Of a stretch of DNA of 64,000 bases, positions 3,641 to 47,629 are shown one piece after another. Numbering within the stretch: position 1 is the stretch's first letter; the number at the start of each line of letters is the position of its first letter. The notes under the pieces are model-generated. The model made no database searches. It was not told where the DNA came from and saw nothing but the letters and a program-made list of their open reading frames with translations. Source of the DNA: Bacteroidales bacterium (GTDB taxonomy: Bacteria; Bacteroidota; Bacteroidia; Bacteroidales; PWNQ01); the NCBI GenBank assembly GCA_021738505.1, contig JAIPBW010000003.1:1-64000 (forward strand), read 5' to 3'. Position numbers and translations under genes: made by a program.

Positions 3641-3847
3641 ATGTCTAAAATTTTGTTCGTTGTTCCGTGTTTTGTGTTCGTTGTTCGTCCGCTAATTGCG
3701 CTAATTACACACCAATTAACGCGGATTGAGTATATTCTTATTCGCAAATGTAATTCGTAATTCGTAATTCATAATTCAAGATACGCATCATCGCCAACTC
3801 ACCACTCACCACTCACTACTCATTCTCTTAGTCTCTTCGTTCTCTAA

Positions 3848-3897
3848 TCCCGATAGCTATCGGGACTCTTAGTCGCTTATCCCGATAGCTATCGGGA
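3848..3897. repeat. Two copies of perfect 18-bp palindrome TCCCGATAGCTATCGGGA
   Basis: Copies at 3848-3865 and 3880-3897, 32 bp apart, in the yidC/pyrG intergenic region. Confidence 0.9.
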
Positions 3898-3934
3898 CGC
3901 TCAGTTCGCATCATCGCCAACTCGCCGCTTCGCA

Positions 3935-3996
3935 TTTAATCATTCTCCTGTGTGCCGAACGCCGCGCCATGGAGATTTCATATGATTAAATTTTTT
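3935..3996 (+). repeat. Dispersed intergenic module (family M), copy 1
   Basis: TTTAATCATTCTCCTGTGTGCCGAACGCCGCGCCATGGAGATTTCATATGATTAAATTTTTT; related copies at ~9063, 9182, 13592, 37280 and 46835. Confidence 0.8.
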
Positions 3997-4250
3997 AAAA
4001 TATTGATAATGTCATTATTATGTTTTCTTGCTTTTATCTCTTTATCTCTTACTGTCATTTGCTTCGCGTCATCTTTAGTCATTTGCACTTCGCGCGTCAT
4101 CTTGCTTTACTATATTCTAAGTCATTTACTTCAGTGCTTTCTGAGACGGTTATATTTGACAGCAGCCGGACACACAGGAGTATAGAAAATGACTATTAAT
4201 GACAATAAATGACATTGTTTTCCTTGCAATATCCAGCTCGCCCATCCCCT
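3986..4250 (+). repeat. Long intergenic repeat core (family L), copy 1
   Basis: Shares AATATTGATAATGTCATTATTATGTTTTCTTGCTTTTATCTC...GCTTCGCGTCATC...CTTCGCGCGTCAT...TTTCTGAGACGGTTAT...AATGACAATAAATG with 13298-13591 and 46886-47190 (inverted). Confidence 0.88.
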
Positions 4251-6878: not shown

Positions 6879-9026
6879 ATGACCAAAATTGGTATTCAAG
6901 AAACATTTCATTTAGGAGACGGTGCGTCCACGACGCTTGAAACCGGAAAATTAGCCAAACAGGCTGATGGGTCAGTCGTAGTAACACATGGCGACACCAT
7001 GTTGCTGGCCACTGTAGTATCAAAAAAAGAAGTAAACAAAGACGTAAATTTCTTACCTCTAACCGTAGATTACAAAGAAAAATATGCTGCTGCGGGACGC
7101 TTCCCGGGCGGATTTTTCAAACGTGAGGCTCGCCCTTCAGAATATGAGATTCTTATCTCACGCCTCATCGACCGCGCCCTTCGTCCTTTATTCCCCGATG
7201 ATTATCGCGCGGAAACACAAGTCTTAGTATCTCTGATCTCCGCAGGTAAAGATATCTCTCCTGACGCTTATGCTTGTCTAGCTGCCTCAGCGGCAATTCA
7301 GGTATCGGATATTCCAATCGAGATGCCCATCTCCGAAGTAAGAGTTGCTCAAATTGATGACAAATTTGTAATCAACCCCTTGCGCTCGGAACTGGAAAAC
7401 GCAACCTTAGAGCTCATCGTAGCCGGAACTATGGAGAATGTCAACATGGTTGAAGGTGAGATGCAAGAAGCCTCTGAAGAGACCATGATGGAAGCCATCA
7501 AAGCGGCTCATGCAGCTATTAAAGTACAATGCCAGGCTCAGATCGAACTGCGGAAGAAAACAGAAAACGAAAAAGGGGAAATCACCATCCGTGAATATGA
7601 GCATCCCGAACAAGATGAAGAGCTGGAAAAGAAAATATGGGAAAGCACCTATGATAAAGCTTACGAAATAGCTTCCGCCAATATCACCGACAAACATGAA
7701 AGATCGGAAAAATTTAGTGCGATCATTGATGAGTTTATCGAATCCATGTCCGAAGAGGAACAGGAAGAAAAAGCATCATTGGCAAAACACTACTTTCATG
7801 ATGTGCAAAAAGATGCCATCCGCAACATGGTATTGGATAAACGAACACGCTTAGACGGCAGAAAACTGGATGAGATTCGTCCGATATGGTCTGAAGTAGA
7901 TTATCTGCCCGCAGCTCACGGCTCTGCCGTTTTCACCCGCGGAGAAACACAATCCCTTTCTACGGTAACATTGGGCTCTAAGCTTGATGAGCAAGTCATT
8001 GACGGTGCTATTATCGAAGAAAAACAAGATTTCATCCTTCATTATAACTTTCCTCCTTTCTCTACAGGAGAAGTTAAACGTATGATGGGTACCAGTCGTC
8101 GTGAACACGGTCACGGAAACCTTGCTCTTCGTGCACTTAAGCCTATCATGCCTGCTTCAGAAGACAATCCTTACACTATCCGGATTGTATCTGACATTTT
8201 GGAATCCAACGGATCATCATCAATGGCTACGGTTTGTGCCGGTACACTTGCTTTGATGGATGCCGGAGTGAAAATCCAAAAACCGGTTTCCGGTATTGCA
8301 ATGGGACTCATTGCAGATGCCAAATCAGACAATTATGCTGTCCTTTCTGATATCCTGGGCGATGAAGACCATCTTGGAGATATGGACTTTAAGGTTACAG
8401 GTACCCGGGACGGAATAACAGCATGCCAAATGGACATCAAAGTAGATGGCCTTTCCTATAAAGTCATGGGAGAAGCTTTAGAACAAGCGAAAGCCGGCCG
8501 TATGCATATCCTGGATAAGATGACGGAAACGATTGAAAAACCACGGGAAGATTATAAAGATTTTGTGCCGAGAATTGAATCTCTAATTATTGCTAAAGAA
8601 TTTATTGGCGCTATTATCGGACCCGGAGGAAAAGTAATTCAGGAAATTCAAAATGAAACCAACACAACAATTACAATTGAAGAAGTTGGTGAATTTGGCC
8701 ATATAGATATCATGTCTCCTGATAAGGAGTCTATTGATCAGGCCAAAGAAAGAATTCGCCTGTTAACAACTGTACCCGAAGTTGGTGAAGTATACACCGG
8801 TAAAGTGAAAAACGTTGTTGCTTTTGGTGCTTTTGTTGAAATACTTCCCGGAAAAGAAGGCTTATTGCACATCAGCGAGCTTGAATGGCACCGTGTAAAC
8901 AATGTGGAAGACATTCTTAAAGTTGGTGATGAAGTACAAGTAAAACTTATTGAAGTAGACAAAAGAAGCGGAAAACTTAAGCTTTCCCGCAAAGCTCTTC
9001 TGCCAAAACCTGAAAAGGACAAGTAG
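6879..9026 (+). CDS. pnp: Polyribonucleotide nucleotidyltransferase (PNPase)
   Basis: 715 aa; two RNase PH domains, KH domain ([13 protein letters not shown]) and S1 domain ([30 protein letters not shown]). Confidence 0.97.
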
Positions 9027-9062
9027 AATTCATATGATTAAATTTTATTAAATAGGTGTTAT

Positions 9063-9136
9063 GGAACTCACATGCAGTAGCCTAACTTTAATCATTTATC
9101 TGTGTGTTTAAGGCTATCATGTTCGTTTCATATGTC
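9063..9136 (+). repeat. Hairpin module related to family M, copy 2
   Basis: GGAACTCACATGCAGTAGCCTAACTTTAATCATTTATCTGTGTGTTTAAGGCTATCATGTTCGTTTCATATG; internal stem TAGCCT.../...AGGCTA. Confidence 0.72.
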
Positions 9137-9181
9137 TAAATTGATTTTAATGGTACTATGTTTACCCCGTCATTTTTGCGG

Positions 9182-9250
9182 GGGAACCCCATGCTGTAGC
9201 TTAACTTTAGTCATCATCTTGTGTGCTTAAGGCAAACATGGAGGTTTCCT
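9182..9250 (+). repeat. Hairpin module related to family M, copy 3 (tandem with copy 2)
   Basis: GGGAACCCCATGCTGTAGCTTAACTTTAGTCATCATCTTGTGTGCTTAAGGCAAACATGGAGGTTTCC; ends form an inverted repeat (GGAA-CCCCATG / CATGGAGGTTTCC). Confidence 0.75.
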
Positions 9251-9253
9251 TTA

Positions 9254-9296
9254 TAAAAAAAAGCACCTTTCCAAATCGGTTAGGTGCTTTTTTTGT
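9254..9296. terminator. Bidirectional Rho-independent terminator between pnp and the BASS-family transporter gene
   Basis: AAAAAAAAGCACCT ttccaaatcggtt AGGTGCTTTTTTT. Confidence 0.9.
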
Positions 9297-9329
9297 TGCT
9301 AATCCACTGACTTTATTGTCAGAGGCATT

Positions 9330-13256: not shown

Positions 13257-13290
13257 AGAAAGCCTGCTTGCAAAAGCGGGCTTTTTTTTT
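13257..13290 (+). terminator. Rho-independent terminator after the T9SS cargo gene
   Basis: AAAGCCTGCTTgcaaaAGCGGGCTTTTTTTTT. Confidence 0.85.
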
Positions 13291-13297
13291 GCCCCGG

Positions 13298-13591
13298 ACT
13301 AAATTTTTCAAAATATTGATAATGGTATTATTATGTTTTCTTGCTTTTATCTCTTACTGTTATTTGCTTCGCGTCATCTGTAGTCATTTGCGCTTCGCGC
13401 GTCATTTTGCTTTACTATGCTCTAAGTCATTTACTTAAGGGCTTTCTGAGACGGTTATTTTTGAGAGCATCCGGACACAGAAGTATAAAAAATGACCATT
13501 AATGACTACCAATGACCATCAATGACAACAAATGACTACTAATGACAATAAATGTCATTGTTTTCTTTGCATTATCCAAATCGTCCAGCCC
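13298..13591 (+). repeat. Long intergenic repeat core (family L), copy 2
   Basis: Collinear with 3986-4250; has an expanded AATGAC run (AATGACCATTAATGACTACCAATGACCATCAATGACAACAAATGACTACTAATGACAATAAATG). Confidence 0.9.
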
Positions 13592-13640
13592 TTTAATCAT
13601 TCTCCTGTGTGCCGGACGCCGCGCCATGGAGGTTTCATAA
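13592..13640 (+). repeat. Dispersed intergenic module (family M), copy 4
   Basis: TTTAATCATTCTCCTGTGTGCCGGACGCCGCGCCATGGAGGTTTCATAA; nearly identical to 3935-3981. Confidence 0.9.
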
Positions 13641-13787
13641 TGTATAAAAAAACCGGCTGAGGTCTGTTAAAAAAAGTCTGTTTAATCATAAGTCAGGATT
13701 ATTGAAAAAGTCTTTAGGACAACAGGCAGAAGGTGGCAAGATGGAGCATGGTGAAACAAAAAGGCCTTTATGAACAAACACAACCTT

Positions 13788-37183: not shown

Positions 37184-37279
37184 ACGTCTGATTATACATA
37201 ATTCTTATATATATAACTCATGCTATTTGCATTTTGTTTTCCTTTTATCCAAATATCATCATACAAATTATCTTACAAA

Positions 37280-37333
37280 TATAAAACCTCCATGGCAGTT
37301 GTAGTTGTTTTCGAGACATAAGAGAATGATTAA
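37280..37333 (-). repeat. Dispersed intergenic module (family M), solo copy
   Basis: Plus strand AATAAAACCTCCATGGCAGTTGTAGTTGTTTTCGAGACATAAGAGAATGATTAA; reverse complement matches TTTAATCATTCTCCTGTGTG...CCATGGAGGTTTCAT. Confidence 0.75.
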
Positions 37334-37451
37334 TATACAGGCGAATTGGCGATAATTGGACTGATCGAACAAAGCGACGTAAAGGATCAACGATTTAACA
37401 GACAGCCTAAAATTGTGTTTTTGCAAAAAATTAATTTAAACAATAGCAACA

Positions 37452-45876: not shown

Positions 45877-46830
45877 ATGAATAAAAAGATAAACCAAATT
45901 TCATTTTTGTTAAAACGAATCATGTGGCTTATCGGATTCCTTTTAATTAGCCCCTGCATGCTGTTTCCCCAGGACTGGAATGAAAAATTTGAGTGGTGGA
46001 ACAACAAACATAATTGGGATGGCGTAACTCCCTGGCATCAATATATCGGATTGTCAACTTCCTATATGGGCCCCAATGCATTACCTGTTCCCCAAATCCA
46101 GGATGCATCATTAGCCAAAGTTCCGGAATTCAACTATTCCAACAATTATTTCTTCCAAAAGGGAGATCATACGGTAGATGCCAAAATTAAATTCATTTAT
46201 CCTTTTGAACGTGTTCAATTATCAGCGTGGATTGTACCGCTGGAGTATTTTCATATAACAGATACATTAATCCGCGATAAACGAGCTATTCGTTATAAAA
46301 ACCCGGAAGGAACAGCATCCGGCGACCTATACATGGGAACCCATGTAAAGATTATAGATAATGCTCAATGGCCGGATATTGTTTTAGGTTTTGTCTTCCG
46401 CACTGCATCCGGTTCAAAACTCTCCATGGCAAGATATACCGACATGCCGGGGTATTATTTTGATCTTTCCGTAGGACATACTTTTCAATTGGATCATGAA
46501 AATTTAAAAAAAATCCGCTTATATGGCATGAGTGGTTTTTATGTATATCAAACTTACGATCTGCTTCACAATCAAAACGATGCTGTTTTATACGGATTAG
46601 GCGCTAACCTGCATTTTAAGAAATTTTCCGTTTCAAACCAGTTGGGTGGCTATTATGGTTATTTGGATATTGGAGATCACCCAATGATATATCGCTTAAA
46701 GATTAAATTAAAACAACAACATTTTGACTGGCATCTCCGTTATCAATACGGCATCAATGATTATCCTTACCAATCAACAGGCATAGGATTTACGTGGAAG
46801 ATCCCCGAAATTGGGATTCAAAAAAAATAA
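45877..46830 (+). CDS. Hypothetical exported protein, probable outer-membrane beta-barrel
   Basis: 317 aa; N-terminal hydrophobic segment; alternating beta-rich aromatic C-terminus; no family recognised. Confidence 0.65.
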   Translation: MNKKINQISFLLKRIMWLIGFLLISPCMLFPQDWNEKFEWWNNKHNWDGVTPWHQYIGLSTSYMGPNALPVPQIQDASLAKVPEFNYSNNYFFQKGDHTVDAKIKFIYPFERVQLSAWIVPLEYFHITDTLIRDKRAIRYKNPEGTASGDLYMGTHVKIIDNAQWPDIVLGFVFRTASGSKLSMARYTDMPGYYFDLSVGHTFQLDHENLKKIRLYGMSGFYVYQTYDLLHNQNDAVLYGLGANLHFKKFSVSNQLGGYYGYLDIGDHPMIYRLKIKLKQQHFDWHLRYQYGINDYPYQSTGIGFTWKIPEIGIQKK

Positions 46831-46834
46831 GAAA

Positions 46835-46885
46835 ATATGAAACCTCCATGGCGAAAATTTTTTCGACACATAGGAGAATGATTAA
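46835..46885 (-). repeat. Dispersed intergenic module (family M), copy 6
   Basis: Plus strand ATATGAAACCTCCATGGCGAAAATTTTTTCGACACATAGGAGAATGATTAA; reverse complement of the module. Confidence 0.85.
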
Positions 46886-47190
46886 AGGGCTGGACGAGTT
46901 GGATAATGCAATGGAAACAATGACATTTATTGTCATTAGTAGTCATTAGTAGTCATTGGTAGTCATTGATGGTCATTTTCTATACTTCTGTGTCTGGCTG
47001 CTGTTAAATATAACTGTCTCAGAAAGCCCTGAAGTAAATGACTTATAATGTAGTAAAGCAAAATGACGCGCGAAGCGCAAATGACTACAAATGACATCCG
47101 TCGAAGACGGATAAATGACGCGAAGCAAATGACAGTAAGAGATAAAAGCAAGAAAACATAATAATGACATTATCAATATTTTGAAAACTT
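46886..47190 (-). repeat. Long intergenic repeat core (family L), copy 3, inverted
   Basis: Reverse complement collinear with 13298-13591; contains an extra ATCCGTCGAAGACGGAT hairpin relative to the other two copies. Confidence 0.9.
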
Positions 47191-47197
47191 TAAAAAT

Positions 47198-47629
47198 ATG
47201 AAACGAATAATCATAGCCTTGATGGCAATATTTGCCCTTGTATCATGTACGAATCAGGAAGAAAAAGCAAAAGAAAGCTTTAAACAGGGGCTTAAGCACC
47301 TTGAAAAAAACCAACTCGACGCTGCATTATCAAAAATCAATGAAGCTATTGAATATTCAGATGATGACCCACGTTTTTTCTTCTATCGTGGCAATATCTA
47401 TATGAATAAAAAGAAATTCGCAAAAGCAATTCAGGAATATGATCATGCTATAAAAATTGACTCCACCTATGCAGATGCCTGGTTAAACAAGGGAAATGCC
47501 ACCTTTTATAAAACAGGAAATAAGACTGATGCCTGTCCTTATTGGCTTAAAGCTCATAAACACGGCAGAAAAAATCTCATCAATAAAATCAAAAGCTGCC
47601 CTGAATTCTCAATGGATATGGTACGTTAA
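47198..47629 (+). CDS. TPR-repeat lipoprotein
   Basis: 143 aa; lipobox-like FALVSCTN; RFFFYRGNIYMNKKKFAKAIQEYDHAIKIDSTYADAWLNKGNATF. Confidence 0.88.
   Translation: MKRIIIALMAIFALVSCTNQEEKAKESFKQGLKHLEKNQLDAALSKINEAIEYSDDDPRFFFYRGNIYMNKKKFAKAIQEYDHAIKIDSTYADAWLNKGNATFYKTGNKTDACPYWLKAHKHGRKNLINKIKSCPEFSMDMVR

Follow-up and report, generated by a model that had tools for sequence, protein, structure and literature searches.

The hairpin-forming repeats behind pnp most probably belong to a small mobile element that is non-autonomous and inserts at ATGA, mostly at start codons that read ATGA, by a route that includes a folded coding strand; we put the probability of this reading at roughly two in three. 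The many copies, their exact ATGA boundaries, the empty sites in relatives and the covariation between an internal guide and the right end were all directly observed. The element belongs to a hitherto unnamed, Bacteroidota-wide family with a length of ~95-120 bases, and in the open-access literature we found no description of the element or its sequence. The original prediction overlooked its main feature, the association with start codons and the boundary at ATGA.

Two head-to-tail modules behind pnp

The window (the whole 64,000-nucleotide stretch that was analysed) contains two hairpin-forming units behind pnp, a gene whose identity was confirmed with NCBIfam. They lie where the original prediction placed them, at 9063-9129 and 9183-9248, with starts 120 bases apart, and share 79% identity across 68 bases (blastn E 4e-9). 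Both contain the outer and the inner stem of the original description. As RNA, unit 1 folds at -14.1 kcal/mol (z -2.9) and unit 2 at -16.3 kcal/mol, the latter not exceptional (z -1.2). The repeats are thus real, but they had been read on the wrong strand and to the wrong extent: the informative strand is the minus strand, and the units are only the hairpin halves of longer modules. Read on the minus strand from 9250 to 9028, two modules follow each other head-to-tail as AGGAAAC-module 2-ATGAAAC-module 1-ATGAAT, abutting the pnp stop. Each module begins with ATGAAAC, continues through an imperfect hairpin (ATGaAAC..ga..CATG / CATG..ga..GTTcCAT), which we call H1, and then an AT-rich tail, and ends in a second ATGA; in module 2 the left ATGAAAC has decayed to AGGAAAC. 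R1 is the covariance model described below. The features are as follows.

9028-9131, minus strand: module 1 (type A), from left ATGAAAC to right ATGAAT; matched by R1 over all 94 positions, E 6.2e-9
9118-9131, minus strand: left end and H1 5' arm, ATGAAACGAACATG; from the R1 alignment and pair counts in relatives
9061-9074, minus strand: H1 3' arm, CATGTGAGTTCCAT, with a tandem G.A mismatch against the 5' arm; from the R1 alignment and the fold
9058-9067, minus strand: internal guide, GTTCCATAAC, pairing with left ATGAAAC and right TATG; from the sequence and covariation in relatives
9030-9036, minus strand: module 1 right end, CATATGA, directly against the pnp stop TAG at 9024-9026
9132-9250, minus strand: module 2 (type B), upstream of module 1 and head-to-tail with it; copies 89-95% identical in contigs C75, C49, C102 and C11
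9160-9182, minus strand: optional 23-base hairpin block, CCCGCAAAAATGACGGGGTAAAC, in the module 2 tail; present or absent among other copies

This layout accounts for two further parts of the original prediction. The fragment TCATATGATTAAATTTT after the pnp stop, which had been taken as a possible sign of an array, is the right end of module 1 and not a third unit. The different spacer noted for module 2 exists, but consists of the module's own AT-rich tail and the extra GTTTACCCCGTCATTTTTGCGGG hairpin block at 9160-9182. No gene begins at the module 1 right end (9030-9036), and the array behind pnp is probably a neutral passenger with no downstream gene.

The position of the modules, between the pnp stop, which they adjoin, and a terminator-like hairpin (~9257-9297), is what would be expected of ordinary terminator or stability hairpins of the pnp 3' end that resemble each other by accident. 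The closest named relative, Bacteroidales MAG Tobar15.5-16.5m-G4 (L090), has a PNPase that is 89% identical and a terminator-like hairpin behind pnp, but it keeps this terminator without any such hairpins, and no array was found behind its pnp. The element also reads on the opposite strand, and dozens of unrelated genes have a near-identical copy next to them. The copy distribution refutes the terminator reading, to which we give virtually no weight.

Short and long relatives in the source genome

The repeat pair is not a product of chance, since the 3.06 Mb source genome (G000) has 43 matches to the unit pair and 79 to a 356-base relative (query 13290-13645). The short relatives in it number at least 43 and the long ones more than 40, with many of these loci at contig ends. 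Several types share the same ends, ATGAAAC(C/G)..CATG on the left and ..AAATTTARNCATATGA on the right. Types A and B are ~100 bases long, type C is ~350 bases long with internal TAGTCATTRR repeats, and type D likewise exceeds A and B in length. Copies occur singly or stacked with a period of 88-120 bases. The stacks are head-to-tail in all arrays seen, and their junctions are ATGA except in decayed copies. The predicted picture of tandem, dispersed and structured modules, possibly in arrays, was borne out, and the covariance search proposed with it, whose failure would have refuted it, recovered many further copies with a conserved stem.

Four other modules in the window that had been grouped with the pair (3935-3990, 13591-13650, 46835-46887 and 37274-37333) do belong with it, but as the left ends of longer relatives of ~350-600 bases:

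3641-4248, minus strand: array of two long relatives (types C and D); the right end, TTTTAGACATATGA, is the yidC start codon (ATG 3640-3638; yidC assigned by PF02096/PF14849)
46837-47197, plus strand: long relative (type C) between a gene end at 46830 and the start codon of a TPR-protein gene at 47198
13300-13638, minus strand: long relative (type C) with a decayed right end, behind the gene for a T9SS-sorted protein
37274-37340, plus strand: decayed left-end fragment of a long relative

The type C modules (4014-4248, 13319-13591 and 46887-47095) contain a variable count of 10-base TAGTCATTRR units and may also carry an optional ATGACATCCGTCGAAGACGGATAAATG block, and both features cause their length to differ between copies. 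Inside the type D module, at 3841-3904, lie tandem perfect palindromes, TCCCGATAGCTATCGGGA, that recur in other type D copies. In a sister species (G001; L087, L072 and L075) a mini-palindrome, CCGCCTWAGGCGG, takes the place of the inner part of the hairpin, as though another repeat had been acquired.

ATGA boundaries and start codons

In the source genome, the ATG of the right end opens a long frame in 24 of 48 loci. All 24 of these start codons read ATGA, followed by varied sequence (AAA, ACA, AAC, AAT, AGA or AAG). Across ~30 genomes, the right-end ATG begins a frame of 60 codons or more in 36 of 47 cases, against a background of 24-31% for all ATGA or ATGAAA in the same loci, genes included. 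The starts that follow copies in genome G045 agree with conserved protein N-termini. The downstream genes there include some that are presumably NadE-like and IspG-like. A long frame follows 23 of 46 terminal copies in G059-G061, which means that the preference for start codons may reflect selection rather than targeting. Because about half of these copies lack a long frame, ATGA is the rule and the start codon the commonest, but not the sole, site.

ATGA(AA) is found on both sides of the insert, and one of the two copies may belong to the element. An extra base is common to both sides in five of nine informative loci of the source genome, more like a target duplication longer than ATGA. At L008, L010, L017, L041 and L052/L002 the base two before ATGA is identical on both sides and unlike the family consensus, which suggests a longer-than-ATGA duplication in this genome. 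We also considered a conserved leader peptide beginning at the left ATGAAA. Some G059 copies keep this frame open, but in the source genome it ends within a few codons, and so is not conserved.

Evidence for movement

Copies within a genome can be identical in unrelated surroundings, a sign of recent movement. G045 has 35 copies, seven of which are 100% identical over 100 bases and have unrelated left flanks and different downstream genes. The median identity of nearest neighbors is 0.99 in the source genome, 0.94 in G059 and 0.83 in G060, whose copies, on a nearly closed chromosome, are older.

Orthologous genes in relatives lack the element. Six loci of the source genome were set against their counterparts in two genomes of the same genus, G001 and G002, and in all seven comparisons no element was present at the start. 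Two empty sites are the clearest. For C76 against L235, the flank and ATGAAACG are continuous in the relative. For C51 against L238, the relative has a stop/start overlap, ATGA, at the point where the element of the source genome begins and ends. These relatives are only ~76% identical in DNA, which limits the alignment of intergenic sequence. At the C51 locus (C51_24813, L063), the insertion at the stop/start ATGA added about a dozen residues to the upstream protein and pulled apart two genes that overlap in the relative (L238).

A conserved fold and a guide that covaries with the right end

Among 46 copies from one genus, H1 is formed in 95% of cells and the tandem G.A mismatch is kept (AAC-GA-GCATG / CATGC-GA-GTT). 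H1 shows little variation in this genus, and the covariation of its arms there is weak, with 24 of 500 shuffles reaching the score. Across the phylum, the stem arms change together, for example GAAACCCACATG/CATGTGGGTTCC and GAAATGAGCATA/TATGCGAATTCC. A second helix joins the guide, CCATNNG, to the right end, CNNATG. In one genus their pairing reaches 75%, compared to 51% after shuffling (0 of 5000 shuffles). For 46 distinct copies from many families the figures are 84% and 52% (0 of 5000), with distant copies aligned to a model that lacks the guide-right helix. The shuffles ignore relatedness. Cells changed on both sides of this helix number 26, compared to 10.4 in shuffles, and RNAalifold recovers both helices unprompted. 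In window module 1 the pairing of guide and right end is limited to CATA/TATG. No covariation links the guide to the left flank, so the right end is part of the element. Mismatches read on the coding strand are G.T more often than A.C (47 to 17), pointing to the coding strand as the strand that folds.

We propose the following account of how the element moves. On the coding strand it consists of ATGAAAC, H1 with its tandem G.A mismatch, the guide GTTCCATNNG, the AT-rich tail and CNNATGA. It would move as a folded single strand of this sense, with one guide pairing in turn with the left ATGAAAC and the right CNNATGA. The paired ends would be presented to a trans-acting nuclease or transposase, and the strand joined to another ATGA. 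With ATGA at both ends and an AT-rich tail, the gene would keep its start codon and a usable initiation region, so that insertion at start codons would be tolerated and further copies could stack into arrays at the same site.

The strong covariation of the guide-start helix would also fit a mobile cis-regulatory RNA that is kept at start codons for translational control, in which the guide CCATNNG hides CNNATG while the upstream ATGAAAC competes for the guide and frees the start. H1 and the guide-start helix both use GTTCCAT and are thus mutually exclusive, most copies precede genes in the same orientation, and the structured strand is the sense strand. However, the downstream genes share no theme (yidC, TPR, NadE-like, SDR and peptidases), many copies have no gene behind them (G059-G061 and the window array), in the minimum free energy fold of the copy in the window the right-end ATG stays unpaired, and no known RNA family matches: the window has no Rfam match at the gathering threshold, and four loci gave only sub-threshold chance matches at a lax one. 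We consider regulation as the primary explanation unlikely, at about one chance in four in our estimate; a translational role of the guide-start helix is possible and compatible with mobility.

Mobility at the RNA level, by reverse splicing or by reverse transcription of a small RNA, would give the guide a function like that of the internal guide of a group I intron, acting at both junctions. A single guide that pairs with both ends, a tandem G.A mismatch that is kept while adjoining pairs change, and the coding-strand bias would all fit. The element is too short for a known self-splicing intron, however, and this and the lack of an Rfam match make such a route very improbable. A group II intron was rejected separately, as its boundaries, GUGYG...AY, are absent.

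Distribution and significance

R1 was built solely from G059-G061, which belong to a different family from the source genome, and its E-values are rough; it matches the window copy at full length (E 6e-9). It found the element in 83 of 393 Bacteroidales genomes, most of them draft assemblies, and in 56 of 206 genera. Across Bacteroidota, 17 of 396 genomes had matches, other orders and classes included, with the same anatomy, start codons and guide matches; locus L340 was excluded from this comparison.

Start codons should be the last place where an insertion is tolerated, yet they are home to this element family in about one-fifth of the Bacteroidales genomes sampled. Because the 5' leaders of genes such as yidC are rewritten, the element may be a common, unrecognised source of expression change in Bacteroidota, and it disturbs the annotation of start sites. 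The covariation between guide and end offers a concrete handle on how end and target are recognised, and the mobilising enzyme can be searched for directly in genomes that have identical copies. A broader interpretation, which we hold only tentatively and judge somewhat less probable than its opposite, is that these elements form a phylum-wide class specialised for start codons, with ATGA recognised by means of a self-complementary guide for both ends, a recreated start codon, stacking into arrays, and an enzyme or mechanism outside the known transposon classes. If this is true, even essential genes survive insertion.

Known systems and the search for a mobilising enzyme

The original prediction likened the units to REP/BIME repeats, and the corresponding explanation is that a host RAYT (TnpA-REP) moves them. 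REP/BIME repeats are likewise short, structured, repeated, intergenic and non-autonomous and can cluster, and atypical secondary structures border the Bacteroidetes TnpA subclass 2.6 (PMC6006769). Y1 transposase genes occur in the source genome and are enriched in element-bearing genomes (72 of 83, compared to 197 of 310 others; Fisher p 3e-5). The defining mark of REP/BIME repeats is a tetranucleotide, GT[AG]G or CGTC, at the 5' hairpin foot (PMC6006769, PMC3733652), whereas the foot here is ATGAAAC / GTTCCAT in nearly all aligned copies and the tag is absent. REP copies of 20-40 bases alternate in orientation (head-head, tail-tail); the element measures 94-120 bases or more, is arrayed only head-to-tail, has ends fixed at ATGA, sits at start codons and does not lie beside RAYT genes. 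Among 31 Y1/RAYT neighborhoods there was no clear copy, only two weak matches that were not adjacent (best E 0.003). Copy-rich genomes G060, G354 and G067 have no Y1 gene, and the Y1 genes of G000 and G059 bear their own, different repeats. As predicted, the window contains no RAYT. Movement by a host RAYT thus seems improbable, though less so than an RNA-level route.

Like IS200/IS605, the element has a tetranucleotide target, a hairpin near the end, an internal guide complementary to an end and no terminal inverted repeats (left ATGAAACGAG, right end reversed TTTCATCCGT) (PMC6006769). Its guide is found 3' of the hairpin on the strand that folds, whereas that of IS200/IS605 lies 5'; one guide serves both ends, the element is only 100 bases long, and several copy-rich genomes lack a Y1 gene. 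Given a guide on the other side of the hairpin and Y1 genes neither adjacent nor always present, we take a folded coding-strand intermediate, cut at ATGA by a trans-acting enzyme, as the most likely route. HEARO and ISC (IscB) elements have been reported to insert beside ATGA, but the element described here has no ORF, is far smaller and has no Rfam match. Among the 35 copies of G045, the one genome in which these were sought, there was neither an autonomous version nor a split copy enclosing a gene.

Bacteroidota MITEs such as BrickBuilt of Porphyromonas gingivalis are similarly non-autonomous, short and present in many copies (PMC4596501). The element differs in lacking terminal inverted repeats, in having no parent insertion sequence that we could find and in its fixed target at ATGA or the start codon. 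Heptamer TAACTGA direct repeats also occur just before start codons in forward orientation, in some Bacteroidetes too (PMC4679880), but are simple arrays without the hairpins, guide or mobile boundaries of the element. Arrays and a hairpin also suggested integron attC sites, a candidate rejected because the foot lacks GTTRRRY/RYYYAAC.

The RAYT-like genes that exist elsewhere in the source genome have another repeat, GCCGTAGGTGCGACATTAT, on their flanks. Two intact genes of this RAYT-like Y1 kind lie on C18 (L031, G000:C18:11105-14449; L032, G000:C18:1901-5245), the former amid a dense tandem field of GCCGTAGGTGCGACATTATGGTAGC / AATGTCGAGCCTACGGCTC and the latter amid sparser copies. In G059, two near-identical Y1 genes stand in tandem (L230, G059:C278:318-3668), each bordered by repeats of the TGGCTGACCCCATTAAT type.
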